A stretch of DNA of 41,441 nt from positions 74,859 to 116,299 of the forward strand of contig SVQY01000001.1 of NCBI GenBank assembly GCA_015065135.1, read 5' to 3'. The notes under the pieces are model-generated. The model was not told the origin of the DNA. It saw only the letters and a program-made list of their open reading frames with translations, and did not search any database. Position numbers and translations under genes: made by a program. Shown here in pieces: positions 7,393 to 41,441 of this stretch (positions are counted from its first letter, which is position 1; each line of letters begins with the position of its first letter). The stretch comes from Oscillospiraceae bacterium (GTDB lineage Bacteria > Bacillota > Clostridia > Oscillospirales > CAG-272).

Positions 7393-7423
7393 CGTAGCAC
7401 CCTCCTTTTCGGTCGCTGTGTTC

Positions 7424-7452
7424 AGTATAGCACGGGAAAAATCAAAAGTAAA
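7424..7452 (-). promoter_or_regulatory. Promoter of the GHL6-type glycosidase gene
   Basis: Minus strand -35 TTTACT (7452-7447), 17-bp spacer, -10 TATACT (7429-7424), about 25 bp before the AAGGAGG site. This placement rules out the longer open frame as the real start. Confidence 0.65.
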
Positions 7453-7524
7453 GCGAAAACCGGCCAAAAAAGAGGAATTTGGGCCAATTTTAAACCGGAA
7501 TTCAAGGGCGTGGAGCCGCATATC

Positions 7525-22510: not shown

Positions 22511-22665
22511 AGAACACCTCCTTGGATGGTTTTTGCAATGCGGGAAAAGTTCTGCTTTTTCGCATCGCTCTTCCATTTTACCACAAAAAATCCTGAAACG
22601 GTGCAGGAAATTGCTGACATTTACTGCTTCGATGCCCTTTTGCAGCAGCTTCACAAAGATTTCAT

Positions 22666-22694
22666 TTGACATTTGATGCATTTTGATATACAAT
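22666..22694 (+). promoter_or_regulatory. Promoter of the ribulokinase operon
   Basis: Perfect -35 TTGACA (22666-22671), 17-bp spacer, -10 TACAAT (22689-22694). A GATATATATC palindrome at 22696-22705 overlaps the transcription start and could be an operator. Confidence 0.8.
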
Positions 22695-22710
22695 AGATAT
22701 ATATCATTTT

Positions 22711-22726
22711 TTCGCGTGTGCGCGAA
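22711..22726 (+). promoter_or_regulatory. GC-rich leader hairpin before araB
   Basis: TTCGCG (22711-22716), loop TGTG, CGCGAA (22721-22726), about 11 nt after the expected transcript start and touching the AAGGAAAG site. It shares CGCGTGTG with the fumC leader hairpin. Confidence 0.6.
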
Positions 22727-22741
22727 GGAAAGAGGCACAAA

Positions 22742-24397
22742 ATGGCAAAATACACCATCGGTATTGATTTCGGATCGCTTTCGGGACGCACTGTGCTCAC
22801 CGACGTCGCCACCGGCAAGGAAATGGCTGCCGCTACGTTGGATTACCCCCACGCAGTCATGGACACGCATCTTGCCAAGGGAAACGTTCCGCTCCCCGCA
22901 GACTTTGCGCTGCAGGATCCTGCCGATTATCTGCTGGTGCTGGAAAAGACAATTCCCCAAGTGCTTGCAGACAGTAAGGTATCCCCTACCGACGTGGTGG
23001 GCATCGCTCTCGACTTTACCTGCTGCACCCTGCTGCCGGTAGACGAGAACGGTACACCCCTTTGCTTTGATCCCGCCTTTGAAAGCGAGCCACTCGCCTA
23101 CACCCTGCTCTGGAAGCATCACGCAGCGCAGAAATACGCCGACCGTATGAACAAAATAGCCCGTGAACGGGGCGAGAAATTCCTGGATCTGGTGGGCGGA
23201 ATCATCTCCAGCGAGTGGATGTTTCCCAAGATCTATCAGGTGCTGGAGGAGGCCCCTGCCGTTTACGAAAAGGCACGATATTTCATCGAGGCCGGCGACT
23301 GGGTCGCCTGGATGCTCTGCGGTAAGCAGCATCGCGGCTATCAGTTTGCTGCCTGCAAGAGCCATTATGTCAAGGGGGTCGGCTATCCCTCAGAGGAATA
23401 CTTTGCCGCCGTGGATCCCCGTCTCACCCACGTGGTGCGGGACAAGCTGACCAATCCCGACTGCATGTTGGGCGATAAGATCGGAGAGCTGACCCCCGAG
23501 ATGGCAGCACGCACCGGTCTGCGCGCCGGCATTGCTGTCGGCGCCCCCGCCCCCGATGCTCATATTGCAGCGCTTTCTCTGGGTGTGAAGCAGGAGGGCG
23601 ATATGTTCGGTGTGCTGGGCACCTCCGGCTGCTTCTTCCTGGTTGGCAGCGAGGGCAAAACAGTCCCCGGCATCTGCGGCACCGTTCCGGACGGTGTGCT
23701 GCCCGGCCTTTACGGCTACGAGTCCGGACTTTGCTGCTTCGGCGACCACTTCGCCTTTGCCGCCGAAAAGCTGACCTCCGCCGCTTACCAAAAGGAAGCA
23801 GAGGAGCGTGGCATACCTATGATCAAGCTGCTGATCGAAAAGGCCGCAAAAAAGAAGCCCGGCGAGAGCGGCGTGATCGCACTGAACTGGTTTAACGGCA
23901 ATCGCAGCACGTTGGTCAACTCGGAGCTTTCCGGCATGTTCCTCGGTATGACGCTGACCACCGCGCCCGAGGATCTGATGCGTGCGCTCATCGAGGCGAC
24001 CGCCTTTGGCTGGCGCAATATCATCGAGACCTTTGAGAGCTGCGGCGTACCGACCAAAAACATCATCGCCTCGGGCGGCATTGCCCGCAAGGATCCCTTC
24101 TCGATGCAGCTCTACGCTGACGTACTCGGCAAGAATATCACCATCACCGAAAGCGCGCAGGCGCCCGCCGCCTCTGCCTCGATCGGTGCCGCCGTGGCTG
24201 CCGGCTGCTACAGCGATCTGATAGCCGCCTCTGATGCTATGGCCAGCAAAAAAGATCGTGTGTACCGCCCCATTGCCGCAAACACCGCCATTTACGATCA
24301 GCTTTACGCCGAATACAAAACTCTGCACGATTACTTCGGCAGGGGCGGCAATAACGTGATGAGCCGGCTGCGCAAGCTGGCTGCCGCGCAGAAATAA
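22742..24397 (+). CDS. araB: L-ribulokinase (FGGY kinase)
   Basis: A 551-residue sugar kinase that phosphorylates L-ribulose in L-arabinose use. Marks: N-terminal phosphate loop GIDFGSLSGRTVL (7-19), LQDPADY (58-64), VGGIISSEWMFPKI (151-164), catalytic Asp272 in GAPAPDAHIAAL, GTSGCFF, LNWFNGNRS, EATAFGWR and the FGGY-C signature ASGGIARKDPFSMQ. This series matches AraB rather than xylulokinase or rhamnulokinase. No araA or araD lies beside it here. The true start is ATG 22742 after AAGGAAAG. Two unknown membrane-protein genes follow within 12-25 bp. Confidence 0.85.
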   Translation: MAKYTIGIDFGSLSGRTVLTDVATGKEMAAATLDYPHAVMDTHLAKGNVPLPADFALQDPADYLLVLEKTIPQVLADSKVSPTDVVGIALDFTCCTLLPVDENGTPLCFDPAFESEPLAYTLLWKHHAAQKYADRMNKIARERGEKFLDLVGGIISSEWMFPKIYQVLEEAPAVYEKARYFIEAGDWVAWMLCGKQHRGYQFAACKSHYVKGVGYPSEEYFAAVDPRLTHVVRDKLTNPDCMLGDKIGELTPEMAARTGLRAGIAVGAPAPDAHIAALSLGVKQEGDMFGVLGTSGCFFLVGSEGKTVPGICGTVPDGVLPGLYGYESGLCCFGDHFAFAAEKLTSAAYQKEAEERGIPMIKLLIEKAAKKKPGESGVIALNWFNGNRSTLVNSELSGMFLGMTLTTAPEDLMRALIEATAFGWRNIIETFESCGVPTKNIIASGGIARKDPFSMQLYADVLGKNITITESAQAPAASASIGAAVAAGCYSDLIAASDAMASKKDRVYRPIAANTAIYDQLYAEYKTLHDYFGRGGNNVMSRLRKLAAAQK

Positions 24398-29986: not shown

Positions 29987-30913
29987 TTACTTCAAAAATC
30001 CGCCGATGATCTGCTCCTCCGCTTCCTTTTCGGTAAGCCCCAGGGTCATCAGCTTGATCAGCTGCTCCCCCGCGATCTTGCCAATAGCAGCCTCGTGGAT
30101 GAGAGAGGCCTCGGGATGATTTGCCTCGATCTCGGGCACCGCGCTGACAGTAGCGCTATCCATAATGATGGCATCGCACTCGGTGTGACCGCTGGAGCGG
30201 TTGTTGCCATTGACGTGCGAGATAAACTCCTGCTTGGAGCTATCCTTTGCCACCGAGCGAGAGACCACATGAGTACCGCAGTCCTCGCCGTCCAGATCCA
30301 CCTCGAAATAGGTTCTCGCGTATTGCTGACCGTGGGTCATGATCTTCTCGTGCACGATGAGGGTCGCGCCGTCGGCAAGCTTTGCCTTGGTGGTGCGGTC
30401 GGTGGAGTCCACACCCTTGATCTGGGCAGTCTCCATCTCCATATAGCTGTTCTTTTCCATATACACCTCGGTGGTGGGGTTCATCACGTTGCGGCCGTTG
30501 CCGTCCCCCTCGCCGTAGTGCTTTTCAATATATTTCACACGCGCGTTCTCGCCCACAAAGAAGCTGTGGATGCCGCTGTGCTCGCTCTTTTCCGCACCGC
30601 CGTTATGGATGCCGCAGCCCGCCACGATGGTCACATCACAGTCCGCACCGATGTGAAAATCGTTATACACCAGCTCGGTGATGCCGGTCTTGGCCAGCAG
30701 CACGGGGATGTGCAGGCTCTCCTTTTTGGTGCCGGGCCTGATGTAGATATCAATGCCGGGCTTGTCCGTCTTTTTGACGATCTCAATATTTTCGCTGGAG
30801 CGGCTATCGAACATTTCTCCGTTCACACGCAGAGAAAAGGCGCCCTCGGGGATCTCGTGGATATCCGCCACCTGCTCCAGAAGATTTTTCTGAATGCTGT
30901 CAAGGTTTGCCAT
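29987..30913 (-). CDS. sufB: SufB/SufD-family Fe-S scaffold protein (minimal SufCB type)
   Basis: A 308-residue SufB/D-type beta-helix protein that would build Fe-S clusters with SufC. Seen: IHIPVLLAKTGITELVYNDFHIGADCDVTIVAGCGIHN (centre of helix), YIEKHYGEG, EVYMEKNSYMEMETAQIKG, SRSVAKDSSKQEFISHV, GHTECDAIIMD and the C-terminal EASLIHEAAIGKIAGEQLIKLMTLGLTEKEAEEQII. It is much shorter than classical SufB (about 470) and lacks a separate SufD, so it fits the minimal two-gene SmsCB/SufCB type. AGGAGGG lies before ATG 30913, 1 bp after the sufC stop. Confidence 0.88.
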   Translation of the reverse strand: MANLDSIQKNLLEQVADIHEIPEGAFSLRVNGEMFDSRSSENIEIVKKTDKPGIDIYIRPGTKKESLHIPVLLAKTGITELVYNDFHIGADCDVTIVAGCGIHNGGAEKSEHSGIHSFFVGENARVKYIEKHYGEGDGNGRNVMNPTTEVYMEKNSYMEMETAQIKGVDSTDRTTKAKLADGATLIVHEKIMTHGQQYARTYFEVDLDGEDCGTHVVSRSVAKDSSKQEFISHVNGNNRSSGHTECDAIIMDSATVSAVPEIEANHPEASLIHEAAIGKIAGEQLIKLMTLGLTEKEAEEQIIGGFLK

Positions 30914-30914
30914 A

Positions 30915-31640
30915 TCAGTTGCCCTCCTTTGCGGTATAGCGGCAGCCTGCGGGTGCCAGCAGGGTGGGCAGGATCTCATTCTTGCTGCCGATCTGCGCCA
31001 CGGTGCCGTCCGCGATCACCACGATCTTATCGGCAATATCCAGAATGCGCTCCTGGTGAGAGATGATCAGAATGCTGCCCTTGGTGCGCTCGTACATCCC
31101 CTCAAACACCTTGATCAGGTTGTTGAAGCTCCACAGGTCGATACCCGCCTCGGGCTCGTCGAAAACAGAGAGCTTGGTGGAGCGCGCGTTGATCATGGCG
31201 ATCTCGATGCGCTTAAGCTCACCGCCCGAAAGCGAGGCGTTGACCTCGCGGTTGATATACTCCTTGGCGCAAAGGCCCACCTCGGAAAGATAGGAGCAGG
31301 CGTTTGCCACAGAGATCTTGGTGCCTGCGGCAAGAGAGATCAGATCCTTGACGGTAATGCCCTTGAAGCGGACGGGCTGCTGAAAGGCAAAGCTGATGCC
31401 CAGCCTTGCGCGCTCGGTGATGGAAAGGTCGGTAATATCTTCACCATCCAGTAAAATGCGACCCGTTGTAGGCTTTTCAATACCCGCAATGATCTTGGCA
31501 ACGGTGGATTTTCCGCTACCGTTGGGACCTGTAATGGCCACAAACCGTTCGGAAACGGTAAAGCTAACATCCTTCAGGATCTCGGTCTTTCCCCCATTTT
31601 CGGCAGGCACCGAGAAGCTGATATTTTGCAACTCCAGCAT
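30915..31640 (-). CDS. sufC: SufC-type Fe-S assembly ATPase
   Basis: A 241-residue ABC ATPase: Walker A GPNGSGKST (38-46), Q-loop SFAFQQPVRFKG, signature ASLSGGELKRIEIA, Walker B LSVFDEPEAGID and switch His in LIISHQERIL. The PEAGIDLWSF and ELKR details are SufC marks. It powers cluster assembly on the SufB partner encoded next. Start ATG 31640 has GGAGAG; a longer open frame is ignored. The operon faces away from fumC and the Fe-S-rich redox cluster it may serve. Confidence 0.92.
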   Translation of the reverse strand: MLELQNISFSVPAENGGKTEILKDVSFTVSERFVAITGPNGSGKSTVAKIIAGIEKPTTGRILLDGEDITDLSITERARLGISFAFQQPVRFKGITVKDLISLAAGTKISVANACSYLSEVGLCAKEYINREVNASLSGGELKRIEIAMINARSTKLSVFDEPEAGIDLWSFNNLIKVFEGMYERTKGSILIISHQERILDIADKIVVIADGTVAQIGSKNEILPTLLAPAGCRYTAKEGN

Positions 31641-31655
31641 AAGCTCTCCTTCATC

Positions 31656-31682
31656 GCCTTTCCACGCAGAACGCGGCAAGGC
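31656..31682 (-). promoter_or_regulatory. Leader hairpin before sufC
   Basis: On the minus transcript GCCTT/AAGGC and CC-CG/CG-GG stems (31682-31656) with one mismatch, one wobble and a TTCTG loop, between transcript start (about 31696) and ribosome site. One of four such leader stems in this window; an Fe-S-responsive role cannot be excluded but is not shown. Confidence 0.5.
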
Positions 31683-31731: not shown

Positions 31732-31883
31732 GAGGCATTTTCACAAGGACTTTGCTACCTCAAAAGCGCAAAAAAGGACAAATGTTAGCGACAGCTAACG
31801 TCAAAACCCCTCAATATCGACTTTTGGACAGAAAAAAGATCAAAAAAAGCGAAAAATTGTTTATTTTTTCACAAGTCTCCTCT

Positions 31884-31913
31884 TGACGGTATTATGAGCT
31901 ATATGATATAATT
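31884..31913 (+). promoter_or_regulatory. Promoter of fumC
   Basis: -35 TTGACG (31884-31889), 18-bp spacer, -10 TATAAT (31908-31913), followed by an 85-nt leader. Confidence 0.8.
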
Positions 31914-31997: not shown

Positions 31998-33374
31998 ATG
32001 GAATACCGCATCGAACATGACTCTATGGGTGAGGTCAAGGTACCCGCCGACCGTTACTGGGCCGCACAGACCGAGCGCAGCCACCAGAACTTCCCCATCG
32101 GCGTTGGCATTGAGACCATGCCCCGCGAGATCACCAAGGCATTCGGCGTACTGAAGAAGGCATCCGCTATTGCCAACAATGCTCTGAAGCCCGAGAAGAT
32201 GACCGACAAGAAGCTGGCCGCTATCAGCCAGGCCTGCGACGAGGTCATGTCCGGCGCTCTCAACGACCACTTCCCTCTGGTCGTATGGCAGACCGGCTCC
32301 GGCACCCAGTCCAACATGAATGCCAACGAGGTTATCGCCAACCGCGCCAATGAGATCGCAGGCGAGAAGCTCTGCCATCCCAACGACGACATCAACATGA
32401 GCCAGTCCTCCAACGATACCTTCCCCACCGCTATGCACATTGCGGCTGTTGAGGCTATCGAGGATAAGCTCTTCCCCGCAGTGGATCTGCTGATCTCCAC
32501 CTTCAAGAAGCTGGAGAGAGCGAACAAGGGCATCGTAAAGAGCGGCCGTACCCACCTGCAGGATGCCACCCCCATCACCTTCTCTCAGGAGATCTCCGGC
32601 TGGCGCTCCTCTCTCGAGCGCGACAAGCAGCTGCTGAAGGCTTCTCTGCCCACCCTCAAGGAGCTGGCTCTGGGCGGCACCGCAGTCGGTACCGGCCTGA
32701 ATGCTCCCGCCGGCTTTGACGTAAAGGTCGCCGAGGCTGTTTCCGCCATCACCGGCAAGAAGTTCGTCACCGCAGGCAACAAGTTCCACGCGCTCACCTC
32801 CAAGGATGAGATCGTATTCGCACACGGCGCCATCAAGGCTCTCGCTGCCGATATGATGAAGATCGCCAACGACGTCCGTTGGCTGGCATCCGGCCCCCGT
32901 CTCGGCCTTGGTGAGATCACCATTCCCGAGAACGAGCCCGGCTCCTCCATCATGCCCGGTAAGGTCAACCCCACCCAGTGCGAGGCTGTGACCATGGTGG
33001 CCGTTCAGGTCATGGGCAACGACGTGGCCGTCGGCATGGCTGCCTCTCAGGGCAACTTCGAGCTGAACGTGTTCATGCCCGTTTGCATCTACAACTTCCT
33101 GCAGTCCGCTCGTCTGCTGGCTGAGGCTATCGTTTCCTTCAACAATAACTGCGCCGTGGGCATCAAGGCCAACAAGCAGAAGATGCACGACAACCTGCAC
33201 AACTCCCTGATGCTGGTGACCGCGCTGAACCCCTACATCGGCTACGAGAACGCTGCCAAGACCGTAAAGAAGGCCTTCAAGGAGAACATCTCCCTGAAGG
33301 AGGCTTGCGTAGCTCTCGGCTTCCTCACCGCTGAGAAGTTCGACGAGGTATTCCACCCCGAGAAGATGGTGTAA
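31998..33374 (+). CDS. fumC: Class II fumarase
   Basis: Interconverts malate and fumarate without an Fe-S cluster. 458 residues: N-terminal FGEV-like MGEVKVPADRYWAAQTERSHQNF, WQTGSGTQSNMNANEVIANRA (about 95-115), SSNDTFPTAMH, SGRTHLQDATPI, and the superfamily signature GSSIMPGKVNPTQCEA (near 315); the TQCEA ending marks fumarase rather than aspartase. AGGAGGAA precedes the ATG. It is followed by a hairpin, two palindromic repeats and the Hdr/Flx/Frd genes, so it probably makes the fumarate that the reductase module consumes. Confidence 0.95.
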   Translation: MEYRIEHDSMGEVKVPADRYWAAQTERSHQNFPIGVGIETMPREITKAFGVLKKASAIANNALKPEKMTDKKLAAISQACDEVMSGALNDHFPLVVWQTGSGTQSNMNANEVIANRANEIAGEKLCHPNDDINMSQSSNDTFPTAMHIAAVEAIEDKLFPAVDLLISTFKKLERANKGIVKSGRTHLQDATPITFSQEISGWRSSLERDKQLLKASLPTLKELALGGTAVGTGLNAPAGFDVKVAEAVSAITGKKFVTAGNKFHALTSKDEIVFAHGAIKALAADMMKIANDVRWLASGPRLGLGEITIPENEPGSSIMPGKVNPTQCEAVTMVAVQVMGNDVAVGMAASQGNFELNVFMPVCIYNFLQSARLLAEAIVSFNNNCAVGIKANKQKMHDNLHNSLMLVTALNPYIGYENAAKTVKKAFKENISLKEACVALGFLTAEKFDEVFHPEKMV

Positions 33375-33396
33375 TACCGTCGTAAAAGGTAAATAA

Positions 33397-33428
33397 ACGG
33401 TGGGGTAGCTTCAAGGCTGCCCCACCGT
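33397..33428 (+). terminator. Terminator-like hairpin after fumC
   Basis: ACGGTGGGGTAGC (33397-33409), loop TTCAAG, GCTGCCCCACCGT (33416-33428), 13-bp stem with one wobble, but no T-tract follows. Termination may be partial, allowing read-through into the hdr genes. Confidence 0.6.
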
Positions 33429-33432
33429 ACAC

Positions 33433-33499
33433 CGACTGCGCAAAATTGCGCAAGACGAATCCCATTATACATTCTGTGTTGCACGATTTTGTGCAGTCG
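33433..33499. repeat. Palindromic element A before hdrB
   Basis: Left arm CGACTGCGCAAAATTGCGCA... (33433-33460) is inverted at 33471-33499 with a few mismatches, leaving about a 10-nt centre. The termini AAAATTGCGCAAGAC and GTGTTGCACGATTTT recur in element B. The 314-bp gap 33375-33688 holds these elements and no gene. Confidence 0.7.
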
Positions 33500-33540
33500 C
33501 ACAAACACATTTCTTTTTCAAAGCAAAGACCCCATTCCGC

Positions 33541-33659
33541 GGGTCGAGAGAAAATTGCGCAAGACAAGGCGTACCGCAGAAAGCAAGGCGAAGGCATAGT
33601 AAGCCTATGTCGAGCCGCTTTCGAGGAACAACGCAGTATTGCACGATTTTCACCGACCC
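33541..33659. repeat. Palindromic element B before hdrB (MITE-like)
   Basis: Arms GGGTCGAGAGAAAATTGCGC... (33541-33565) and ...TTGCACGATTTTCACCGACCC (33636-33659) are inverted, and the centre GGCATAGTAAGCCTATGTC forms a further stem, giving a long imperfect hairpin of about 119 nt. The core arms match those of element A. It ends 30 bp before the hdrB start. Confidence 0.7.
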
Positions 33660-33688
33660 TAAATATTACGAAAGGGAAAAGTACAAAC

Positions 33689-34468
33689 ATGAAATTCAGT
33701 TATTATCCCGGCTGTACCCTGAAAACCAAGGGTAAGGATCTGGATCGCTATGGCAGGCTCGCCGCCGAGGCACTTGGCGTTGAGCTCTGCGAGCTGCCCG
33801 ACTGGCAGTGCTGCGGTGCCGTTTACCCCATGGCAAAGGATGAGATCGCAACCAAGCTCTCCGCCGTTCGCGCGCTGGTCAGCACCCGCGACGAGGGCCA
33901 GGAGCTTGTCACCCTTTGCTCTGCCTGCCACAACGTGATCAAGCAGGTCAACAACGACATGAAGACCGACGCGGACATTGCGCTGCGCGTCAACAATTAC
34001 CTGGATCTGGAAACGCCCTACAACGGCGAGACCACCGTGCTGCATTATCTGGAGGTGCTGCGCGACCGCGTTGGCTTTGACAAGATCAAGGCCGCCGTCA
34101 AGAACCCTCTGACCGGCCGCAGGATCGCCGCTTACTACGGCTGTCTCCTGCTGCGCCCCGGTAAGGTGATGCAGTTTGACGACCCCGAGAACCCCACCAT
34201 TCTGGAGGACTTCATCCGCGCCATCGGTGCCGAGCCTGTGGCTTGGGGCATGCGCAATGAGTGCTGCGGCGGCTATGTGGCTGCCGAGGACAAGGCACAG
34301 GCCAAAAAGCGCAGCAGCATTCTGATGGAGGATGCCGCGAACAATGGCGCCGACACCGTGATCACCGCCTGCCCTCTTTGCCTGTACAACCTGGCCAAGA
34401 ACGGCAATAGCGAGATCCCCGTGGTCTACTTCACCGAGCTGCTTGCTGAGGCGCTTGGCGTAAAGTGA
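33689..34468 (+). CDS. hdrB: HdrB-like heterodisulfide reductase subunit
   Basis: A 259-residue protein with two complete CCG domains: Cys9, Cys41-Cys42, Cys77-x2-Cys80, and Cys152, Cys192-Cys193, Cys228-x2-Cys231. In methanogen HdrB these hold two noncubane [4Fe-4S] clusters that reduce disulfides. It starts MKFSYYPGCTLK, as HdrB does, and AAAGGGAAAA precedes ATG 33689. Since bacteria of this type lack CoM-S-S-CoB, it more likely passes electrons onward, here perhaps to the FrdAB-like proteins, or reduces another thiol compound. First gene of the run; promoter uncertain. Confidence 0.92.
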   Translation: MKFSYYPGCTLKTKGKDLDRYGRLAAEALGVELCELPDWQCCGAVYPMAKDEIATKLSAVRALVSTRDEGQELVTLCSACHNVIKQVNNDMKTDADIALRVNNYLDLETPYNGETTVLHYLEVLRDRVGFDKIKAAVKNPLTGRRIAAYYGCLLLRPGKVMQFDDPENPTILEDFIRAIGAEPVAWGMRNECCGGYVAAEDKAQAKKRSSILMEDAANNGADTVITACPLCLYNLAKNGNSEIPVVYFTELLAEALGVK

Positions 34469-34481
34469 AAGGAGGAGCAAG

Positions 34482-34871
34482 ATGAGTCATAGCAATAATA
34501 AGACCGAGCAGGTCCTGCGCTCCTCTGGCGTGGACGTGCGCAAATGCATGCGCTGCGGCAAGTGCACCGCCACCTGCCCCGCCTTTGACGAGATGGAGTA
34601 CCATCCTCACCAGTTCGTTTATATGGTAGAAAAGGGCGAGATCGACAAGCTGGCTGCCAGCAAGTCCATCTACAAATGTCTTTCCTGCTTTGCCTGCGTG
34701 GATCGCTGCCCTCGCGGCGTAGAGCCCGCAAAGCTGGTCGAGGCAGTCCGCCTCACCGTGATCCGTCAGCAGGGTCAGAACCACTTCAAGGCAGACGACA
34801 TTCCCGCAATGCTTGACGAGGATATGCCTCAGCAGCTCTTCGTCACCGCGCTGCGCAAATACAGCAAGTAA
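34482..34871 (+). CDS. hdrC: HdrC-like Fe-S subunit
   Basis: A 129-residue ferredoxin-like protein with two [4Fe-4S] motifs: Cys22, 25, 28, 32 and Cys66, 69, 72, 76. It matches HdrC, which wires the HdrA flavin to HdrB. Short hydrophilic protein without membrane helices. Thirteen bp behind hdrB, with AAAGGAGGA before the ATG. Confidence 0.92.
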   Translation: MSHSNNKTEQVLRSSGVDVRKCMRCGKCTATCPAFDEMEYHPHQFVYMVEKGEIDKLAASKSIYKCLSCFACVDRCPRGVEPAKLVEAVRLTVIRQQGQNHFKADDIPAMLDEDMPQQLFVTALRKYSK

Positions 34872-34886
34872 GGAGGAAAGCACAAA

Positions 34887-36881
34887 ATGCAAAGAATTGG
34901 CGTATTTATCTGTCACTGTGGCACCAACATTGCCGGCACCGTTGACGTAAAGGCCGTTGCCGAGGCGCTCAGCCACGAGCAGGGCGTGGTGTTTTCCACC
35001 GATTATCAGTATATGTGCTCCGAGTCCGGCCAGCAGCTGATGCGCGAGGCCATCCGCGAGCACAAGCTCACCGGCATTGTGGTGGGCTCCTGCTCTCCCC
35101 GTATGCACGAGGCCACCTTCCGTAAGGCAGCAGCCGCAGAGGGTCTGAACTCCTATATGGTGGAGATCGCAAACCTGCGTGAGCACGTTTCCTGGATCCA
35201 CAAGGATATGAAGGAGGCCACCGAAAAGGCGATCATTCTGGGTCGCGCCGCTATCGCAAAGGTGCATCTGAACGCTCCCCTGCAGGCAGGCGAGTCCCCT
35301 GTGACCAAGCGCGCGCTGGTCATCGGCGGCGGCATCGCCGGCATCCAGACCGCTCTGGATATTGCCGAGGCAGGCTTTGAGGTGGATATCGTAGAGAAAT
35401 CCCCCACCATCGGCGGCAAGATGGCCCAGCTGGATAAGACCTTCCCCACCCTGGACTGCGCAGCCTGCATCCTGACCCCCAAGATGGTGGATGCGGCACA
35501 GAACGAGAAGATCACCATTTACGCCTACAGCGAGATCGAGGCCGTGAAGGGCTACGTTGGCAACTTCAAGGCACAGATCCGCCGCAAGGCAAGATACGTA
35601 GACGAGACCAAATGCACCGGCTGCGGCCTTTGTACCGAAAAGTGCCCCCAGAAGAAGGTGCCCAATGAGTTCAATATGGGCATGGACACCCGCCGTGCCA
35701 TCTACATCCCCTTCGCACAGGCCGTGCCGAAGGTAGCCACCATCGACGCCACCTACTGCACCATGCTGAAGACCGGCAAGTGCGGCGTGTGCTCCAAGAT
35801 CTGCGGCACCGGCGCCATTGATTACACCCAGAAGGATGAGATCATCGAGCGCGAGTACGGCGCTATCGTGGCCGCCACCGGCTTCAATCCCATTGATGCC
35901 AAGGTCTACGGCGAGTACGGCTACGGCACTTGCCCCGACGTGGTGACCTCCCTTGAGCTGGAGAGACTGATGAACGCAGCAGGCCCGACGAACGGCACCC
36001 TGCTCCGTCCCTCCGACAAGGCGCATCCCCACAAGATCGTATTCGTGCAGTGTGTCGGCTCCCGTTGCACCGAGACCGACGAGCGCGGCAAGCCCTACTG
36101 CTCCAAGATCTGCTGCATGTATACCGCCAAGCACGCTATGCTGATCCGTGAGAAATATCCGGATACCGAGGTCTACGTATTCTACATCGACGTCCGCACC
36201 CCCGGCAAGAACTTTGACGAGTTCTACCGCCGCGCGGTAGAGCAGTACGGTGTGCATTACATCAAGGGCATGGTGGGTAAGGTGACCCAGAACGGCACAC
36301 AGCTCCGCGTGCAGGCAAGCGACCTGCTGGCCGGCGAGCAGCTGCACATCGATGCCGATCTGGTGGTGCTTGCCACCGCCATCGAGCCGGACAAGACCGC
36401 CCGCTCCATCGGCACCATGCTGACCGCCAGCATGGATACCAACGACTTCTTCACCGAGGCACATCCCAAGCTCCGTCCCGTGGAGTCCCCCACCGCCGGC
36501 ATCTTCCTTTCCGGTGTTTGCCAGGGACCCAAGGATATCCCCGAGACCGTCTCTCAGGCATCCGCCTGCGCTGCCAAGGTCATCGGCGTGCTTGCCAAGG
36601 ATAAGCTGACCTGCAACCCCTGCGTGGCAAGCTCTGACGAGATGCTTTGTAACGGCTGCTCCTCCTGCGAGAAGGTCTGCCCCTACGGTGCCATCACCTA
36701 CTCCGACAAGGAGTTCCGCGGCCCGAACCGCACCACCCTCATCCGTCGCGTGGCTTCCGTCAACCCTGCCGTATGTCAGGGCTGCGGCGCTTGTACCGTG
36801 GCTTGCCCCAGCGGCGCAATGGATCTGAAGGGCTTTACCAACAAACAAATCATGGCGGAGGTTGACGCAATATGCAAGTAA
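34887..36881 (+). CDS. hdrA: HdrA-like flavin-based electron-bifurcating subunit
   Basis: A 664-residue protein carrying the FAD that splits electron pairs. Order seen: N-terminal IGVFICHCGTNIAG domain, FAD-binding VIGGGIAGIQTALDIAEAG near 145, GGKMAQLDKTFPTLDCAACILTPKM (near 180-200) with HdrA Cys residues, first ferredoxin block CTGCGLCTEKCP near 243, CSKICCMYTAKHAML near 410, and a C-terminal 2[4Fe-4S] ferredoxin (CNGCSSCEKVCP near 588 and CQGCGACTVACP near 630) for low-potential electrons. It is the classical HdrA layout with the extra C-terminal clusters. Its end overlaps flxD by 10 bp. Confidence 0.93.
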   Translation: MQRIGVFICHCGTNIAGTVDVKAVAEALSHEQGVVFSTDYQYMCSESGQQLMREAIREHKLTGIVVGSCSPRMHEATFRKAAAAEGLNSYMVEIANLREHVSWIHKDMKEATEKAIILGRAAIAKVHLNAPLQAGESPVTKRALVIGGGIAGIQTALDIAEAGFEVDIVEKSPTIGGKMAQLDKTFPTLDCAACILTPKMVDAAQNEKITIYAYSEIEAVKGYVGNFKAQIRRKARYVDETKCTGCGLCTEKCPQKKVPNEFNMGMDTRRAIYIPFAQAVPKVATIDATYCTMLKTGKCGVCSKICGTGAIDYTQKDEIIEREYGAIVAATGFNPIDAKVYGEYGYGTCPDVVTSLELERLMNAAGPTNGTLLRPSDKAHPHKIVFVQCVGSRCTETDERGKPYCSKICCMYTAKHAMLIREKYPDTEVYVFYIDVRTPGKNFDEFYRRAVEQYGVHYIKGMVGKVTQNGTQLRVQASDLLAGEQLHIDADLVVLATAIEPDKTARSIGTMLTASMDTNDFFTEAHPKLRPVESPTAGIFLSGVCQGPKDIPETVSQASACAAKVIGVLAKDKLTCNPCVASSDEMLCNGCSSCEKVCPYGAITYSDKEFRGPNRTTLIRRVASVNPAVCQGCGACTVACPSGAMDLKGFTNKQIMAEVDAICK

Positions 36882-37306
36882 ACGGATATACACCCAAGAT
36901 CGTTGCATTCTGCTGCAACTGGTGCTCCTATGCGGGCGCCGACGGCGCAGGCTCTGCCCGTCTTTCCTACCCCGAAAACGTCAAGATCATCCGCGTGCCC
37001 TGCTCCTGCCGCGTGAACCCCATGTTCATTCTGCGTGCCTTCCAGCGGGGTGCTGACGGCGTGATCATTGCCGGCTGTCACCCCGGTGACTGCCACTACA
37101 CCAGCGGTAACTACTTCACCCGTCGCCGTATGGCGCTGCTCTTCTCGATGCTGGATTACCTGGGCATTGAGCGGGAGCGCACCCGTGTGGAATGGATCTC
37201 CGCTGCGGAGGGCGCCAAGTTCTCCAAAACCATGAACGAGTTCTGCGACACCGTCGCCGCTCTCGGTGAGAACAAGAGATTGGAGGATCTGAGATGCAAG
37301 CAATGA
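36872..37306 (+). CDS. flxD: FlxD / MvhD-like [2Fe-2S] linker subunit
   Basis: A 144-residue MvhD-family protein (methyl-viologen reducing hydrogenase delta). It has FCCNWCSYAGAD (Cys14, 15, 18), VPCSCRVNP (Cys44, 46) and GCHPGDCHY (Cys69, 74), and ends with WISAAEGAKF. MvhD joins the electron-donor module to HdrA; no hydrogenase genes are in the window, but FlxABC follow, so the donor is NADH. Overlaps hdrA by 10 bp and flxC by 13 bp. Confidence 0.92.
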   Translation: MQVNGYTPKIVAFCCNWCSYAGADGAGSARLSYPENVKIIRVPCSCRVNPMFILRAFQRGADGVIIAGCHPGDCHYTSGNYFTRRRMALLFSMLDYLGIERERTRVEWISAAEGAKFSKTMNEFCDTVAALGENKRLEDLRCKQ

Positions 37307-38241
37307 TGGAAAAACGCGCCCTGGAGCTTCTGGAAAACGGCACCGTTGACCGTGTGCTGGGCTGGAGCGCAGGCGAGTTCCCCTACGATATGACTCCCGC
37401 CGTCTTTGAGACCGCCGAGGAGCTGAAAAACAACTTCGTTTACAATGATTTCTGCGGTGCAAACCTTTCCAAGTATCTGGTAAAGGAAAGCCGCAAGGGC
37501 GGCAAGATCCTGGTCTTCCTGAAGCCCTGCGACACCTACAGCTTCAATCAGCTGATCGCCGAGCACCGTGTACTGCGCGAGAACGTCTACGTGATCGGCA
37601 TCGAGTGCTACGGCAAGGCCGACGTGGATAAGCTGAAGGCCATGGGTATTGAGGGTATCACCGGCATCCGCACCGAGAACGGCGAGTACACCGTGATGAC
37701 CGTTTACGGCGATAAGACCGTGAAGGCCTATGAGGCCATGGCCGATCGCTGCCTTTCCTGCAAGAGCAAGAAGCACGTGGTCTACGACGAGCTGATCGGC
37801 GAGGAGGGTGAGGTCATTGAGGACTGCGACCGCTTCGATATGGTCAAGAAGCTGGAGGCCATGACCCCCGACGAGCGCTTTGCCTTCTGGAGAAACGAGC
37901 TTTCCCGCTGCATCCGCTGCAACGCCTGCCGCAACGTCTGCCCTGCCTGCACCTGCGAGCAGTGCGTATTCGACAACCCCAACTCCGGCATCAGCCAGAA
38001 GGCGGCTGTCACCTCCTTTGAGGAGAATATGTTCCACATCATCCGCGCCTTCCACGTGGCAGGTCGCTGCACCGACTGCGGCGAATGCTCCCGTGTTTGC
38101 CCCCAGAACATTCCGCTCCACCTGCTGAACCGCAAGTTCATCAAGGATATGAATGAGTTCTACGGCGACTATCAGGCAGGCGAGGATCCCGAAAAGAAGC
38201 CGCCCCTCGGTACCTACACCCTGGGCGACCGCGAGGCTTGA
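37294..38241 (+). CDS. FlxC-like Fe-S protein
   Basis: A 315-residue protein with two ferredoxin-type motifs near the end: Cys206, 209, 212, 216 (CIRCNACRNVC) and Cys259, 262, 265, 269 (CTDCGECSRVC), plus further Cys at 54, 79, 105 and 153/156 (DRCLSCKSKK). The N-terminal half with FLKPCDTYSFNQLI recalls FrhB/FdhB-like coenzyme F420-hydrogenase beta proteins. By place between flxD and the AsrA/HydB-like gene it corresponds to FlxC in the reversed order D-C-B-A. The exact naming of FlxB and FlxC is uncertain. GGAGG precedes ATG 37294. Confidence 0.82.
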   Translation: MQAMMEKRALELLENGTVDRVLGWSAGEFPYDMTPAVFETAEELKNNFVYNDFCGANLSKYLVKESRKGGKILVFLKPCDTYSFNQLIAEHRVLRENVYVIGIECYGKADVDKLKAMGIEGITGIRTENGEYTVMTVYGDKTVKAYEAMADRCLSCKSKKHVVYDELIGEEGEVIEDCDRFDMVKKLEAMTPDERFAFWRNELSRCIRCNACRNVCPACTCEQCVFDNPNSGISQKAAVTSFEENMFHIIRAFHVAGRCTDCGECSRVCPQNIPLHLLNRKFIKDMNEFYGDYQAGEDPEKKPPLGTYTLGDREA

Positions 38242-38257
38242 GAAAGGAGATACGGAT

Positions 38258-39286
38258 ATGAAAAAACTTTCTCTTGCAAAGCTTTATGATTTCTTTGCCG
38301 CCGTTGCCAAGGACGAGGCGCTCTACTGCCCCGTTAACAACGAGACCGGCAAGGCAGAGTACAAAAGATGGAGCGAGGGCGTTGAGCTGTCTCAGCAGCT
38401 GAACACCCTGCGCTCCGCCAAGGACTTCTTCTTCCCCCAGACCGAGAACCTGATGGCCTTCAAGATGGAGGGCAAGAAGATCGACGTGATCGATACCCGT
38501 GAGGAGTGCGAGGATTTCGTCATCTTCGGCGTGCGCGCCTGCGATGCCGCCAGCTTCGATATCCTGGATCGCGTATATCTCACCGATCCCGTTGACAGCT
38601 ACTACAAGAACCGCCGTGAGCACGGCACCGTGATCACCCGCGCCTGCGGCAAGCCCGCCGAGACCTGCTTCTGCGGCACCTTCGGCATCGACGCCGCCGA
38701 CCCCAAGGGCGACATCACCGTGTGGGACGTGGAGGACGGCTACGTTTTCCGCGCCAACACCGAAAAGGGCGAGGCGCTGATGGCCAAGCACGCCGCTCTC
38801 TTTGAGGAGACCGACGACAAGGCTGTGAAGGCCGAGCAGGAAAAGCTCCGCGCCATTATGGCAAAGCTCCCTCTCGCAGGCCTCACCACCGAGGGTGTTG
38901 GCGAGGGCCTTACCAAGGAGCTGTTTGACCGCCCCGAATGGGCATCCCTCTCCGAGGCTTGCCTTGGCTGCGGCACCTGCACCTTCGTTTGCCCCACCTG
39001 CCAGTGCTATGACATCCGCGACTTCGACACGGGTCACGGCATCCAGCGCTTCCGCTGCTGGGATTCCTGCATGTACTCCGACTTTACCAAGATGGCACAC
39101 GGCAACAGCCGTAACAGCCAGCTGGAGCGCTTCCGTCAGAGATTCATGCACAAGCTGGTCTACTTCCCCGATAACAACAACGGCATCTTCGGATGCGTCG
39201 GCTGCGGCAGATGCCTCTCCCGCTGCCCCATTTCCATGAACATCGTCAAGGTGATGAAAGCGCTGGCAAAAGGAGGTAATAAATAA
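38258..39286 (+). CDS. FlxB-like Fe-S protein (sulfhydrogenase beta / AsrA-like)
   Basis: A 342-residue protein of the 4Fe-4S dicluster family of HydB and AsrA. Motifs: FGVRACDAASFDILD (90-104), TCFCGTFGIDA, cluster Cys 235, 238, 241, 245 (CLGCGTCTFVC) and Cys 313, 316, 319, 323 (CVGCGRCLSRC). It passes electrons from the FAD/NAD subunit to the Hdr module. AGAAAGGAGA precedes ATG 38258. Its stop and the flxA start share one base (TAATG). Confidence 0.87.
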   Translation: MKKLSLAKLYDFFAAVAKDEALYCPVNNETGKAEYKRWSEGVELSQQLNTLRSAKDFFFPQTENLMAFKMEGKKIDVIDTREECEDFVIFGVRACDAASFDILDRVYLTDPVDSYYKNRREHGTVITRACGKPAETCFCGTFGIDAADPKGDITVWDVEDGYVFRANTEKGEALMAKHAALFEETDDKAVKAEQEKLRAIMAKLPLAGLTTEGVGEGLTKELFDRPEWASLSEACLGCGTCTFVCPTCQCYDIRDFDTGHGIQRFRCWDSCMYSDFTKMAHGNSRNSQLERFRQRFMHKLVYFPDNNNGIFGCVGCGRCLSRCPISMNIVKVMKALAKGGNK

Positions 39287-40113
39287 TGGAAGAAACTTTG
39301 ATCCCTTATGCGGGTATCGTGACCAAGATCATCGGTCAGACCCCCGACGTCAAGACCTTCCGCGTAGAGGCACCCGGCGGCGGCAAGCTTTTTGAGCATC
39401 TGCCCGGTCAGTGTGCTATGCTCTCCGTGCCCGGCATCAGCGAGGCGATGATCTCGATCACCTCCTCCCCCACCAACAAGGAATTCATGGAGTTCAGCGT
39501 CAAGAAGTGCGGTTGCCTGACCGACTGGCTCCACTCTATGGAGGAGGGCCAGATGATCACCGTGCGTGGTCCCTACGGTCGCCACTTCCCCGTTGACGAC
39601 GAGCTTGCCGGCAAGAACCTGGTATTCGTGGCGGGCGGTATCGGCCTTGCGCCCCTGCGCTCGGTCATCAACTATGTCCGCGACAACCGCGACAAGTACG
39701 GCCGCGTGGATATCATCTACGGCTCCCGCTCCAAGGATGACCTTGTAAACTACGAGGAGATCGTCTCCGAGTGGATGAACACCCCCGACTTCCACGTGCA
39801 TCTGACCATCGACCGCGAGCAGGAGGGCTGGGACGGCCACGTAGGCTTTGTACCCAACTACATTGCCGAGCTGAACCTTTCCGCCGTCAACACCTGCGCG
39901 TTGGTGTGCGGCCCCCCCATCATGATCAAGTTCTCGCTGCCCAACCTGCTGAACGCAGGCTTTGACAAGACCCAGATCTTTACCACGATGGAGCTGCGCA
40001 TGAAGTGCGGCATCGGCAAGTGCGGCCGCTGCAATATCGGCAACAAGTACGTGTGCAAGGACGGCCCCGTATTCCGCTTTGACCAGCTCGACGAGCTGCC
40101 CGACGAATATTGA
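39286..40113 (+). CDS. FlxA-like NAD(P)H:FAD oxidoreductase subunit
   Basis: A 275-residue ferredoxin-reductase-fold protein. FAD domain in 1-105 (AMISITSSP and VRGPYGRHFP), NAD(P)-binding in 110-230 (VFVAGGIGLAPLRSVI, VCGPPIMIKFS) and a C-terminal [2Fe-2S] motif with Cys241, 246, 249, 257 (MKCGIGKCGRC), as in AsrB, HydG/sulfhydrogenase gamma, PyrK and FlxA. It should oxidise NADH and feed FlxB. Whether NADH or NADPH is used cannot be told. AAAGGAGGT precedes the ATG. Confidence 0.9.
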   Translation: MEETLIPYAGIVTKIIGQTPDVKTFRVEAPGGGKLFEHLPGQCAMLSVPGISEAMISITSSPTNKEFMEFSVKKCGCLTDWLHSMEEGQMITVRGPYGRHFPVDDELAGKNLVFVAGGIGLAPLRSVINYVRDNRDKYGRVDIIYGSRSKDDLVNYEEIVSEWMNTPDFHVHLTIDREQEGWDGHVGFVPNYIAELNLSAVNTCALVCGPPIMIKFSLPNLLNAGFDKTQIFTTMELRMKCGIGKCGRCNIGNKYVCKDGPVFRFDQLDELPDEY

Positions 40114-40132
40114 TAAGGAGAACATACACACC

Positions 40133-40807
40133 ATGAGTAATATGATCAACATTTACCTCTACGGTAAAAAGTATGAGGTGCCCTCCAGCCTGACCATTAT
40201 GGGGGCTATGGAGTACGCCGGCTATCAGCTGGTCCGCGGTGTCGGCTGCCGTTGCGGCTTCTGCGGCGCTTGCGCTACCATCTACCGCATCAAGGGCGAG
40301 ACCGAGCTGAAGACCTGCCTCGCTTGCCAGACCCAGGTACAGGATAATATGTACATCGCCACCCTGCCCTTCTTCCCCCTGGTAAAGAAGCCCTACGAGA
40401 TCAATGAGGTAAAGCCCACCGAGATGATCATGATGCAGCTTTACCCCGAGATCTACGCCTGCGTCGGCTGCAACGCCTGCACCAAGTCCTGCACCCAGGG
40501 CCTGAACACCATGCAGTACATTGCCTACGCCCAGCGCGGCGAATTTGAGAAGTGCGCCGAGGAGAGCTTTGACTGTGTTGCCTGCGGCGTTTGTTCCTCC
40601 CGTTGCCCTGCCGGCATCACCCACGCACAGGTGGGCCTGCTGGCACGCCGTCTCACCGGCAAGTACCTTGCCCCCGAGACCGGTCACCTGAACGATCGCG
40701 TAGCAGAGATCCTGCGCGGCGACTGCGAGGCGGCTCTGGCTGATATCATGAGCAAGTCTGTTGACGAGCTTAAGGATATGTACAACAACCGCGATTTTGA
40801 GAAATAA
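40133..40807 (+). CDS. Fumarate reductase/succinate dehydrogenase-like iron-sulfur subunit
   Basis: A 224-residue SdhB/FrdB/TfrB-type protein. N-terminal [2Fe-2S] region with Cys39, 41, 44, 47 and Cys62, 65 (GCRCGFCGAC...TCLAC), then [4Fe-4S] motifs at Cys110, 113, 116, 120 and Cys148, 151, 154, 158. It lacks the HdrB-like CCG domain fused in methanogen TfrB; here HdrB is a separate protein. No membrane helix, so probably soluble. Start ATG 40133 lies 12 bp after AAGGAG; ATG 40142 is also possible. It should link HdrBC to the flavoprotein that follows. Confidence 0.85.
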   Translation: MSNMINIYLYGKKYEVPSSLTIMGAMEYAGYQLVRGVGCRCGFCGACATIYRIKGETELKTCLACQTQVQDNMYIATLPFFPLVKKPYEINEVKPTEMIMMQLYPEIYACVGCNACTKSCTQGLNTMQYIAYAQRGEFEKCAEESFDCVACGVCSSRCPAGITHAQVGLLARRLTGKYLAPETGHLNDRVAEILRGDCEAALADIMSKSVDELKDMYNNRDFEK

Positions 40808-40821
40808 GGAGGGCGCACAGA

Positions 40822-41441
40822 ATGTATACCGCAGAAATGCTTGAATCTATCAAAAAGGTAGAGGCCACCCGTGAAGCCCGCCTTGCAAAGGTCATGGCAG
40901 GTGAGAACCCCCGCCGTATGACCGCCGAGGAGAAGGAAAACGTTCTCGCAGCCTTCCACCCCGACCACATCAAGTCTCAGTTCGCTGAGTTGCAGATCGG
41001 CCCCAACAAGGGCGAGAAGGTTCCGTTGGAGCTGGCTGAGATCCTGCAGGCAAACAGCCGCATCAAGCCCTCCGATATCGACCTTTCCAAGGCCGATTAT
41101 GAGACCGACGTGCTGATCATCGGTGGCGGCGGCGCAGGCTCTGCAGCCGCTATCATGGCACACGAGAACGGCGCCAAGGTCATGATCGTGACCAAGCTCC
41201 GCCACGGCGATGCCAACACCATGATGGCTGAGGGCGGCATTCAGGCTGCCGACAAGCCAAACGACTCCCCCGCACAGCACTATCTGGACGTGATGGGCGG
41301 CGGTCACTTCAAGAACATCCCCGAGCTGGTCTACAAGCTGGTCCACGACGGCCCCGAGTGCATCAAGTGGCTCAACGATCTGGGCGTTATGTTCGATAAG
41401 GATGCCGACGGCACCATGGTCACCACCCACGGTGGCGGCAC
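40822..41441 (+). CDS. Fumarate reductase-like flavoprotein subunit (partial, 3' end beyond window)
   Basis: First 206 residues of an FrdA/SdhA/aspartate-oxidase family protein. The Rossmann motif DVLIIGGGGAGSAAA is at 96-110 and TMMAEGGIQAA (133-143), the covalent-flavin-region equivalent, follows; the catalytic part lies outside the window. About 95 residues precede the Rossmann motif, mostly charged and helical (ESIKKVEATREARLAKVM...), which is longer than in common FrdA. AAGGAGGG precedes the ATG. As the last visible gene of the Hdr-Flx run, next to an FrdB-like gene and downstream of fumC, fumarate reduction is the likely reaction; succinate oxidation or another enoate substrate cannot be excluded. 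Confidence 0.82.
   Translation, partial: MYTAEMLESIKKVEATREARLAKVMAGENPRRMTAEEKENVLAAFHPDHIKSQFAELQIGPNKGEKVPLELAEILQANSRIKPSDIDLSKADYETDVLIIGGGGAGSAAAIMAHENGAKVMIVTKLRHGDANTMMAEGGIQAADKPNDSPAQHYLDVMGGGHFKNIPELVYKLVHDGPECIKWLNDLGVMFDKDADGTMVTTHGGG

Follow-up and report, generated by a model that had tools for sequence, protein, structure and literature searches.

In methanogens, the TfrB subunit of thiol:fumarate reductase carries a C-terminal CCG domain, and the non-cubane clusters of HdrB are the site of disulfide chemistry. For Pseudoclostridium thermosuccinogenes, a 2020 paper (PMC7282089), citing a 2019 preprint (Preprints 201912.0288), described a "succinate operon" (CDQ83_RS03365 to RS03315) and proposed ferredoxin-coupled fumarate reduction. 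As that description has the same gene set and the same idea as the locus analyzed here, neither the operon nor the ferredoxin coupling is new, and the view of an earlier note on this DNA, that the joined arrangement could not be named, has to be abandoned. Our literature search, with most subscription journals and bioRxiv outside its coverage, found no purification or assay of the enzyme.

The locus lies in a window of 41,441 nucleotides from an Oscillospiraceae bacterium (GCA_015065135.1, contig SVQY01000001.1; genome completeness 84%), the end of which coincides with the contig end at 116,299 bp. It comprises ten genes, all on the plus strand: fumC, hdrB-hdrC-hdrA, flxD-flxC-flxB-flxA, and frdB-frdA. 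The nine hdr-flx-frd genes had been described as tightly packed in this order, and the ORF coordinates agree, with spacings from hdrB to frdA of +13, +15, -10, -13, +16, -1, +19, and +14 bp (largest gap 19 bp). They had also been placed behind fumarase. Indeed, fumC (31998..33374, 458 aa), which encodes a class II fumarase (TIGR00979 equivalog, 710.9 bits against a cut-off of 664.75), is upstream on the same strand, but 314 bp holding an inverted repeat (hairpin; 33395..33430) separate it from hdrB, so that fumC is a putative rather than an established co-transcribed member. A candidate promoter precedes fumC (31883..31912, plus strand; TTGACG-18-TATAAT with TG before the -10 element, 11 of 12 consensus bases, by pattern match only).

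HdrB (33689..34468, 259 aa) has two CCG domains (PF02754, two stretches), matches the HdrB of solved Hdr complexes (profile A3, E 8.9e-46), and contains two complete CCG cysteine sets, whose ten cluster cysteines are kept in 110 of 110 homologues. HdrC (34482..34871, 129 aa) is a dicluster ferredoxin subunit that HdrC models match below cut-off. HdrA (34887..36881, 664 aa), an FAD/Fe-S subunit of the bifurcating type, has Fer4 and FAD-type domains, i.e., FAD with inserted ferredoxin domains, and its nearest solved structure is the bifurcating HdrA 5odc_A (E 1.3e-215, aligned over residues 3-661). The flx genes encode FlxD (36872..37306; MvhD/FlpD, 144 aa; PF02662, 182.9 bits against a cut-off of 22.3), the Fe-S subunit FlxC (37294..38241, 315 aa), which resembles FdhB of F420 formate dehydrogenase (9t1s_M, E 3.6e-26), a sulfhydrogenase beta/AsrA-like Fe-S subunit FlxB (38258..39286, 342 aa), and an FAD/NAD(P)H-binding subunit FlxA (39286..40113, 275 aa; PF00175, PF00970, PF10418). 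FrdB (40133..40807, 224 aa) has one 2Fe-2S and two 4Fe-4S motifs, the 12 ligand cysteines of which are kept in 174 of 174 homologues, and a domain scan of the 224-aa protein found no CCG domain (PF02754). Counts for HdrB and FrdB are limited to homologues above a score and coverage threshold.

Because frdA (40822..41441) stops at the contig end after the N-terminal 206 aa, the active site of this flavoprotein was read in relatives, which are 531-549 aa at full length (n = 20). Among distinct homologues passing 600 bits and 90% coverage, the active-site positions are complete in 129 of 129; invariant are those aligned to H242, T254, E255, R286, H354, and R399 of SdhA, and the covalent-FAD His is absent, with Asn in its place, in all 129. 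In the three full-length relatives scanned, the TfrA model (331-341 bits; equivalog cut-off of 718 not reached) outscores the nadB model (265-275 bits; equivalog cut-off of 452.75 not reached), and PF02910, the flavoprotein C-terminal domain, is absent. The possibility, raised in the earlier note, that FrdA is an aspartate oxidase was thus not borne out, and sequence comparison supports its assignment as a fumarate-reductase-type flavoprotein.

We scored frdB, flxD, and other genes in each of 146 genomes of the family, and found frdB in 51 and flxD in 54, the former genomes being a subset of the latter. The two genes lie on one strand, 2.8-3.7 kb apart, in 50 of the 51 genomes with frdB; they are on different contigs in the 51st (G112), and in the three flxD-only genomes the locus breaks at a contig end. 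Wide flanks were obtained for 20 loci from each of three sets (50 non-window family matches, 46 class matches, and 38 phylum matches), picked for genus and family spread. Gene order is kept in all 20 family loci and in 19 of the 20 class loci fetched, the remaining one (G414) having all nine genes in permuted order. The best 80 of 585 named matches are probably in part redundant with these genome-labelled loci, some representing the same contigs (the contigs of L056 and L033 agree in length and match equally). None of the 80 contradicts the arrangement: 56 show all ten genes and 23 of the other 24 are cut, starting at most 121 bp from the first core match, while the uncut L068 has no fumC within 3.4 kb upstream. 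Such counts make the arrangement more than chance, and the adjacency of hdr-flx with frd that had been noted in the window is strongly conserved across genomes.

Among the 40 family and class loci with wide flanks, 27 have a class II fumarase, and in 10 of the other 13 the non-homologous class I fumarase adjoins the unit (tblastn; Pfam-checked in L169 and L175); neither class is in view in three. An AspT-family permease homologue (Pfam-checked in two loci) is present in 53 of the best 80 named, 16 of 20 family, and 8 of 20 class loci, which are overlapping sets, and a GTP-type PEPCK is an occasional neighbor (2 of the best 80 named loci and 1 of 20 family loci). AspT-family permeases are described as including a succinate exporter.

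Among the 20 phylum-level loci, which are from other classes, frdBA is adjoined in three (L223, L224, L233) by hdrC-hdrB alone with no hdrA or flx in view, which fits HdrBC as a direct donor to FrdBA, and in 10 FrdBA has no clear Hdr genes alongside, indicating that it is not tied to bifurcation everywhere. Its partners elsewhere include HdrBC alone, HdrA-rich Hdr sets, and multihaem cytochromes. One FrdBA relative (L231) adjoins a succinyl-CoA-synthetase-type gene. FrdA relatives in L220, L221, and L230 sit in another gene context (in L220, near a PrpD-family protein by Pfam and, by eye, a tricarboxylate-transporter-like ORF) and may act on another acid.

We propose that the operon probably encodes a cytoplasmic HdrABC-FlxABCD-FrdAB enzyme in which NADH drives fumarate reduction coupled to ferredoxin reduction. 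Following the electron path of Hdr-Flx complexes, NADH would donate hydride to the FAD of FlxA, and FlxB, FlxC, and FlxD would relay the electrons to the FAD of HdrA at which bifurcation takes place. There each pair would be split: one electron would go to ferredoxin, and the other, via HdrC and HdrB, would enter the Fe-S chain of FrdB with no carrier in between and reach the FAD of FrdA, where fumarate supplied by FumC would be reduced to succinate. With standard biochemical potentials, the predicted net reaction, 2 NADH + Fd + fumarate -> 2 NAD+ + Fd(red) + succinate, would yield about -33 to -49 kJ/mol. Protein families suggest NADH as the donor and bifurcation at HdrA, while it is gene context that suggests the direct wire from HdrB to FrdB. 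MenB, a menaquinone gene, is over cut-off in 0 of 146 family genomes and Complex I/Ech in only one (G096); with the FrdA type and the conserved adjacency, these results favor the NADH:fumarate reductase reading already put forward in the earlier note, apart from its treatment of the arrangement as unnamed.

A broader picture, for which as a whole our belief only slightly outweighs our doubt, is that FrdBA of this subfamily serves as a soluble platform enzyme to which different electron-input modules can be wired directly. In gut Clostridia it would be locked to HdrBCA-FlxDCBA, providing many uncultured gut succinate producers, some of them without Rnf, with a quinone-free bifurcating enzyme. 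HdrB would accordingly do no disulfide chemistry, its two non-cubane clusters acting instead as a wire into FrdB. The enzyme would then be a split thiol:fumarate reductase running backwards, and without Rnf its ferredoxin would feed H2 or NADPH formation, with no ion pump.

It is unlikely, by comparison, that two enzymes are linked by a diffusible carrier, HdrABC-FlxABCD reducing a small disulfide or a thiol protein that then reduces FrdAB. HdrB retains a full set of ten ligands for its two non-cubane clusters, thiols serve methanogen Tfr, DsrC is the proposed acceptor of Desulfovibrio Hdr-Flx (PMC10920352), and a DsrC-like carrier is among the options named for Riftia symbionts (PMC11636981); yet none of the 146 family genomes has DsrC (PF04358) over cut-off (G008 gave a single weak match and the window's own genome none), FrdB has no CCG domain, and a carrier leaves unexplained why flxD accompanies frdB in all 51 genomes that have frdB, in 50 of them within one cluster.

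We give still less credence to reverse operation as a confurcating succinate oxidase, in which succinate and reduced ferredoxin would reduce NAD+. Standard energetics favor fumarate reduction, the frequent AspT-family permease and occasional GTP-type PEPCK neighbors point to succinate formation, and the P. thermosuccinogenes operon has been linked to succinate production (PMC7282089), even though the chemistry is reversible, Desulfovibrio Hdr-Flx is assumed to confurcate in fermentation (PMC10920352), and a succinyl-CoA-synthetase-type gene adjoins FrdBA in L231.

Improbable to the same degree is a non-bifurcating NADH:fumarate reductase in which HdrA is a simple wire and ferredoxin has no role. 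The near-full-length match of HdrA to a solved bifurcating HdrA counts for bifurcation, and succinate was nearly lost at 85% H2 in P. thermosuccinogenes, from which the authors infer ferredoxin coupling; in the same account Na2S (lower redox) acted opposite to H2, a result that they call "confusing" and that counts against the ferredoxin-coupled explanation (PMC7282089). Also in favor of a non-bifurcating enzyme are the partnering of FrdBA elsewhere with HdrBC alone or cytochromes, the lack of Rnf over cut-off in the window's genus, and genome G037. Neither RnfC nor RnfD is over cut-off in three module-bearing genomes of the window's genus; G097 has an RnfC match at 201.6 bits, below cut-off. 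Over the family, rnfC is over cut-off in 34 of 51 genomes with the module vs. 73 of 95 without it (no enrichment, p 0.24), a point against the proposed ferredoxin coupling. [FeFe] hydrogenase is missing in three module genomes, G036 (52% complete), G096, and G037 (97% complete). G037 has no Ech match either, so that none of the large ferredoxin outlets examined is evident in it; an NfnB/GltA-like protein is present. Finally, it is very improbable that FrdA reduces another enoate or is an L-aspartate oxidase: the different context of L220, L221, and L230 would suit the former, but fumarases of two unrelated classes are neighbors, the TfrA model outscores nadB in all three relatives, and an Fe-S partner, FrdB, is present, which NadB is not known to have.

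If ferredoxin-coupled NADH:fumarate reduction is correct, many gut Clostridia, of a group in which MenB and Complex I are all but absent, would form succinate with a soluble enzyme and save energy as reduced ferredoxin. This would alter how ATP, H2, and succinate are budgeted in rumen and hindgut communities, where a lone FrdA gene could be mistaken for evidence of fumarate respiration linked to quinones. It would also provide an example of the Hdr bifurcation core carrying an acceptor enzyme of high potential. P. thermosuccinogenes, described as cultured, transformable, and open to CRISPRi (PMC9044749), is suited to testing the idea.

Compared with known systems, the operon shares flavoprotein catalytic positions with the membrane quinol:fumarate reductase FrdABCD, but it has no anchor subunit, its FrdB has two 4Fe-4S motifs, and its FrdA relatives lack PF02910 and the covalent-FAD His. 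The best-scoring model for full-length FrdA relatives is TfrA, of methanogen TfrAB, albeit below the equivalog cut-off; TfrB has its own CCG domain, which the window's FrdB lacks, HdrB being a separate protein. By domain content, the operon has the seven subunit types that presumably make up FlxABCD-HdrABC of Desulfovibrio vulgaris, but it also includes FrdBA. In D. vulgaris, DsrC is the proposed acceptor in a context of ethanol metabolism (PMC10920352), unlike in the window's family, where no DsrC is over cut-off. A gammaproteobacterial rTCA cluster likewise has flxABCD-hdrABC with tfrAB, and direct electron delivery has been suggested there, but korABCD is interspersed, the organisms are autotrophic symbionts, and tfrAB is the named exception to the shared expression pattern (PMC6315080, PMC11636981). 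The operon of P. thermosuccinogenes, another organism and a cultured thermophile, has, in this order, a fumarase, seven Flx-Hdr genes, and two frd genes, with the same proposed mechanism; the likeness is to a locus-tag list that does not give the gene order within the block of seven. It ends with a possible succinate transporter, whereas the region past frdA in the window is beyond the contig end (PMC7282089). To this we add the near-exclusive pairing of frdB with flxD, the invariant catalytic and cluster ligands, the HdrBC-FrdBA sets without adjoining HdrA/Flx, and a genus without Rnf over cut-off.

The window carries on its + strand, from position 31998 to the window end, ten genes in the order fumC, hdrB, hdrC, hdrA, flxD, flxC, flxB, flxA, frdB, and frdA. 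The nine genes from hdrB through frdA are separated by gaps of 13-19 bp or overlap by 1-13 bp, and most of them are preceded by a plausible ribosome site. The run of nine packed genes behind fumarase described in the earlier note is confirmed in its strand, order, and packing, but fumC stands apart, with hdrB starting 314 bp downstream of it (gap 33375-33688), and frdA is incomplete (first 206 aa only), because the window ends with its contig (the draft genome, G000, is 84% complete). Two inverted repeats lie in the fumC-hdrB gap, a strong one near 33395-33430 and another at 33488-33505, and the gap is only about 20 bp long in the relative L034; a candidate promoter-like site was found upstream of fumC by pattern match. 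Divergent from this Fe-S-rich operon, on the - strand (29987-31679), are a SufBD-core gene and a SufC-like ABC ATPase. The rest of the window encodes, among others, a GHL6-domain protein (5380-7521, - strand), a tandem pair of ABC exporters (12642-16413, + strand), and a CHAP-domain protein (21152-23365, - strand).

FumC passes the fumC_II cut-off. The alignment of HdrA with its counterpart in the solved methanogen complex (5odc_A, E 1.3e-215) covers almost the entire protein. HdrB, too, has matches among solved HdrB proteins; its two CCG motifs contain ten cysteines, none of which varies in 110/110 distinct homologues over threshold. FlxD is of the FlpD/MvhD type, and FlxA contains FAD and NAD domains; FlxB is similar to sulfhydrogenase beta/AsrA, and FlxC to FdhB of F420 formate dehydrogenases. 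One 2Fe-2S and two 4Fe-4S motifs are present in FrdB (224 aa), and their 12 cysteines are kept in 174/174 homologues over threshold; a domain and motif scan found no CCG domain in it.

The operon is real and conserved. Among 146 sampled genomes of the family CAG-272, frdB is present in 51 and flxD in 54, and every genome with frdB also has flxD. The adjacency of hdr-flx with frdBA expected by the earlier note is borne out, as frdB and flxD lie on one contig and the same strand, 2.8-3.7 kb apart, in 50 of the 51 (on separate contigs in G112). In the three flxD-only genomes (G012, G079, and G144) the loci break at contig ends, as does a partial frdB in G038; family genomes with a match have a single one, except that the frdB of G138 is split into two pieces, both lying at base 1 of a contig. 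Gene order is unchanged in all 20 family loci with wide flanks. At the class level (Clostridia), frdB occurs in 47/341 genomes and 32/203 genera, and 19 of the 20 loci fetched keep the order, the most divergent (G414) having frdB-frdA-hdrB-hdrC-hdrA-flxD-flxC-flxB-flxA. None of the best 80 of 585 named loci speaks against the order (all ten genes in 56, 23 cut, and L068 without fumC); the named relatives come from MAGs with titles such as Clostridia, Oscillospiraceae, and Ruminococcus, many of them from ruminant and deer gut.

FumC is encoded upstream of the core in 27 of the 40 wide loci (20 family and 20 class). In 10 of the other 13, a match to the alpha subunit of class I fumarase, a family unrelated to FumC (PF05681, Pfam-checked in L169 and L175), lies beside the core, while neither fumarase class is in view in L052, L165, and L166. 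The presence of two unrelated fumarases beside the same hdr-flx-frd unit is good evidence, from gene context, for fumarate as its substrate. A homologue of the AspT/YidE-family permeases (PF06826, checked in L056 and L057; e.g., L056:12336-13532, downstream of frdA) is in view in 53 of the best 80 of 585 named, 8/20 class, and 16/20 family loci, sets that overlap. Among 100 loci examined, 56 have a member of the permease cluster as their first downstream ORF. GTP-type PEPCK, checked in L086 (12428-14215, downstream of frdA), is in view in two of the best 80 of 585 named loci and 1/20 family loci.

Further FrdB were found in 38/398 genomes sampled across the phylum Bacillota. In the 20 loci fetched, all of which retain the FrdA N-terminal arm, the gene neighbors vary and include different electron-input sets beside the same FrdBA subfamily. 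Complete Hdr-Flx is present in four, with frdBA first in L216, L217, and L227, and as hdrCBA-flxDCBA-frdBA, hdrC leading, in L234. Three loci (L225, L226, and L235) have Hdr sets that include two HdrA-matching ORFs and FlxD, with no FlxA or FlxB found. Another three (L223, L224, and L233) show hdrC-hdrB-frdB-frdA, with no other Hdr-Flx genes in view; such HdrBC beside FrdBA without HdrA or Flx provides the best sequence argument for direct electron transfer from HdrBC to FrdB. The remaining ten have no clear Hdr within view (views of L218 and L221 are cut by contig ends; two hdrC matches in L231 reach 25-28 bits only), and include a NapC-type multihaem cytochrome c in L222 and a Fer4-cytochrome b561 protein in L220. 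The divergent FrdBA of L220, L221, and L230 lie in another setting, with PrpD-family and Fer4-cytochrome b561 proteins (Pfam, L220) and an ORF judged by eye to be tricarboxylate-transporter-like, and may act on another acid.

Based on the protein families, electrons would enter from NADH at FlxA and pass via FlxB/C/D to HdrA, where one branch would lead to ferredoxin and the other through HdrC, HdrB, and FrdB to FrdA; the HdrB-to-FrdB step is suggested by gene context and by FrdB having no CCG domain. The potentials are -320 mV for NAD, +33 mV for fumarate, and -420 to -500 mV for ferredoxin. Calculated from these, the reaction of 2 NADH with ferredoxin and fumarate would yield about -49 to -33 kJ/mol. 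The same value for fumarate is given in PMC5861303.

MenB and DsrC are over cut-off in none of the 146 family genomes, and a Complex I/Ech large subunit is present in one (G096). [FeFe] hydrogenase is present in 137/146, and absent in the module-containing G036, G037, and G096; rnfC is over cut-off in 34/51 genomes with frdB vs. 73/95 without (p 0.24). The three module-containing genomes of the window's genus (G000, G037, and G097; the fourth genome, G140, lacks the module) have no RnfC or RnfD over cut-off, G097 having an RnfC match below it, and all three have an NfnB/GltA-like protein over cut-off. G037 (97% complete) also lacks a Complex I/Ech match. Given the lack of Rnf over cut-off, the NfnB/GltA-like protein, and the hydrogenase distribution, the ferredoxin product in this genus probably goes to H2 or NADPH, the main outlet of G037 excepted.

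The earlier note could not name this arrangement, yet the same gene set and idea are already in print. PMC7282089 describes a "succinate operon" in Pseudoclostridium thermosuccinogenes that encodes a fumarase, an Flx-Hdr complex (seven genes), a fumarate reductase (two genes), and what may be a succinate transporter, up about fourfold at CO2 limitation (significance not reached by every subunit), and assumes ferredoxin-coupled fumarate reduction, citing Preprints 201912.0288. In symbionts, Flx-Hdr feeding tfrAB and korABCD is discussed in PMC6315080 and PMC11636981, the latter noting tfrAB as an exception to the shared expression pattern. The proposal of the note had thus already been made; no assay of such an enzyme was found in the literature searched, where coverage of subscription journals and bioRxiv is thin. 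The operon is a further case of an enzyme type already proposed, with a putative mechanism. The published idea is made more concrete and easy to test by the close pairing of the genes, by the fumarases of two non-orthologous kinds beside them, and by the sets with HdrBC and FrdBA alone.
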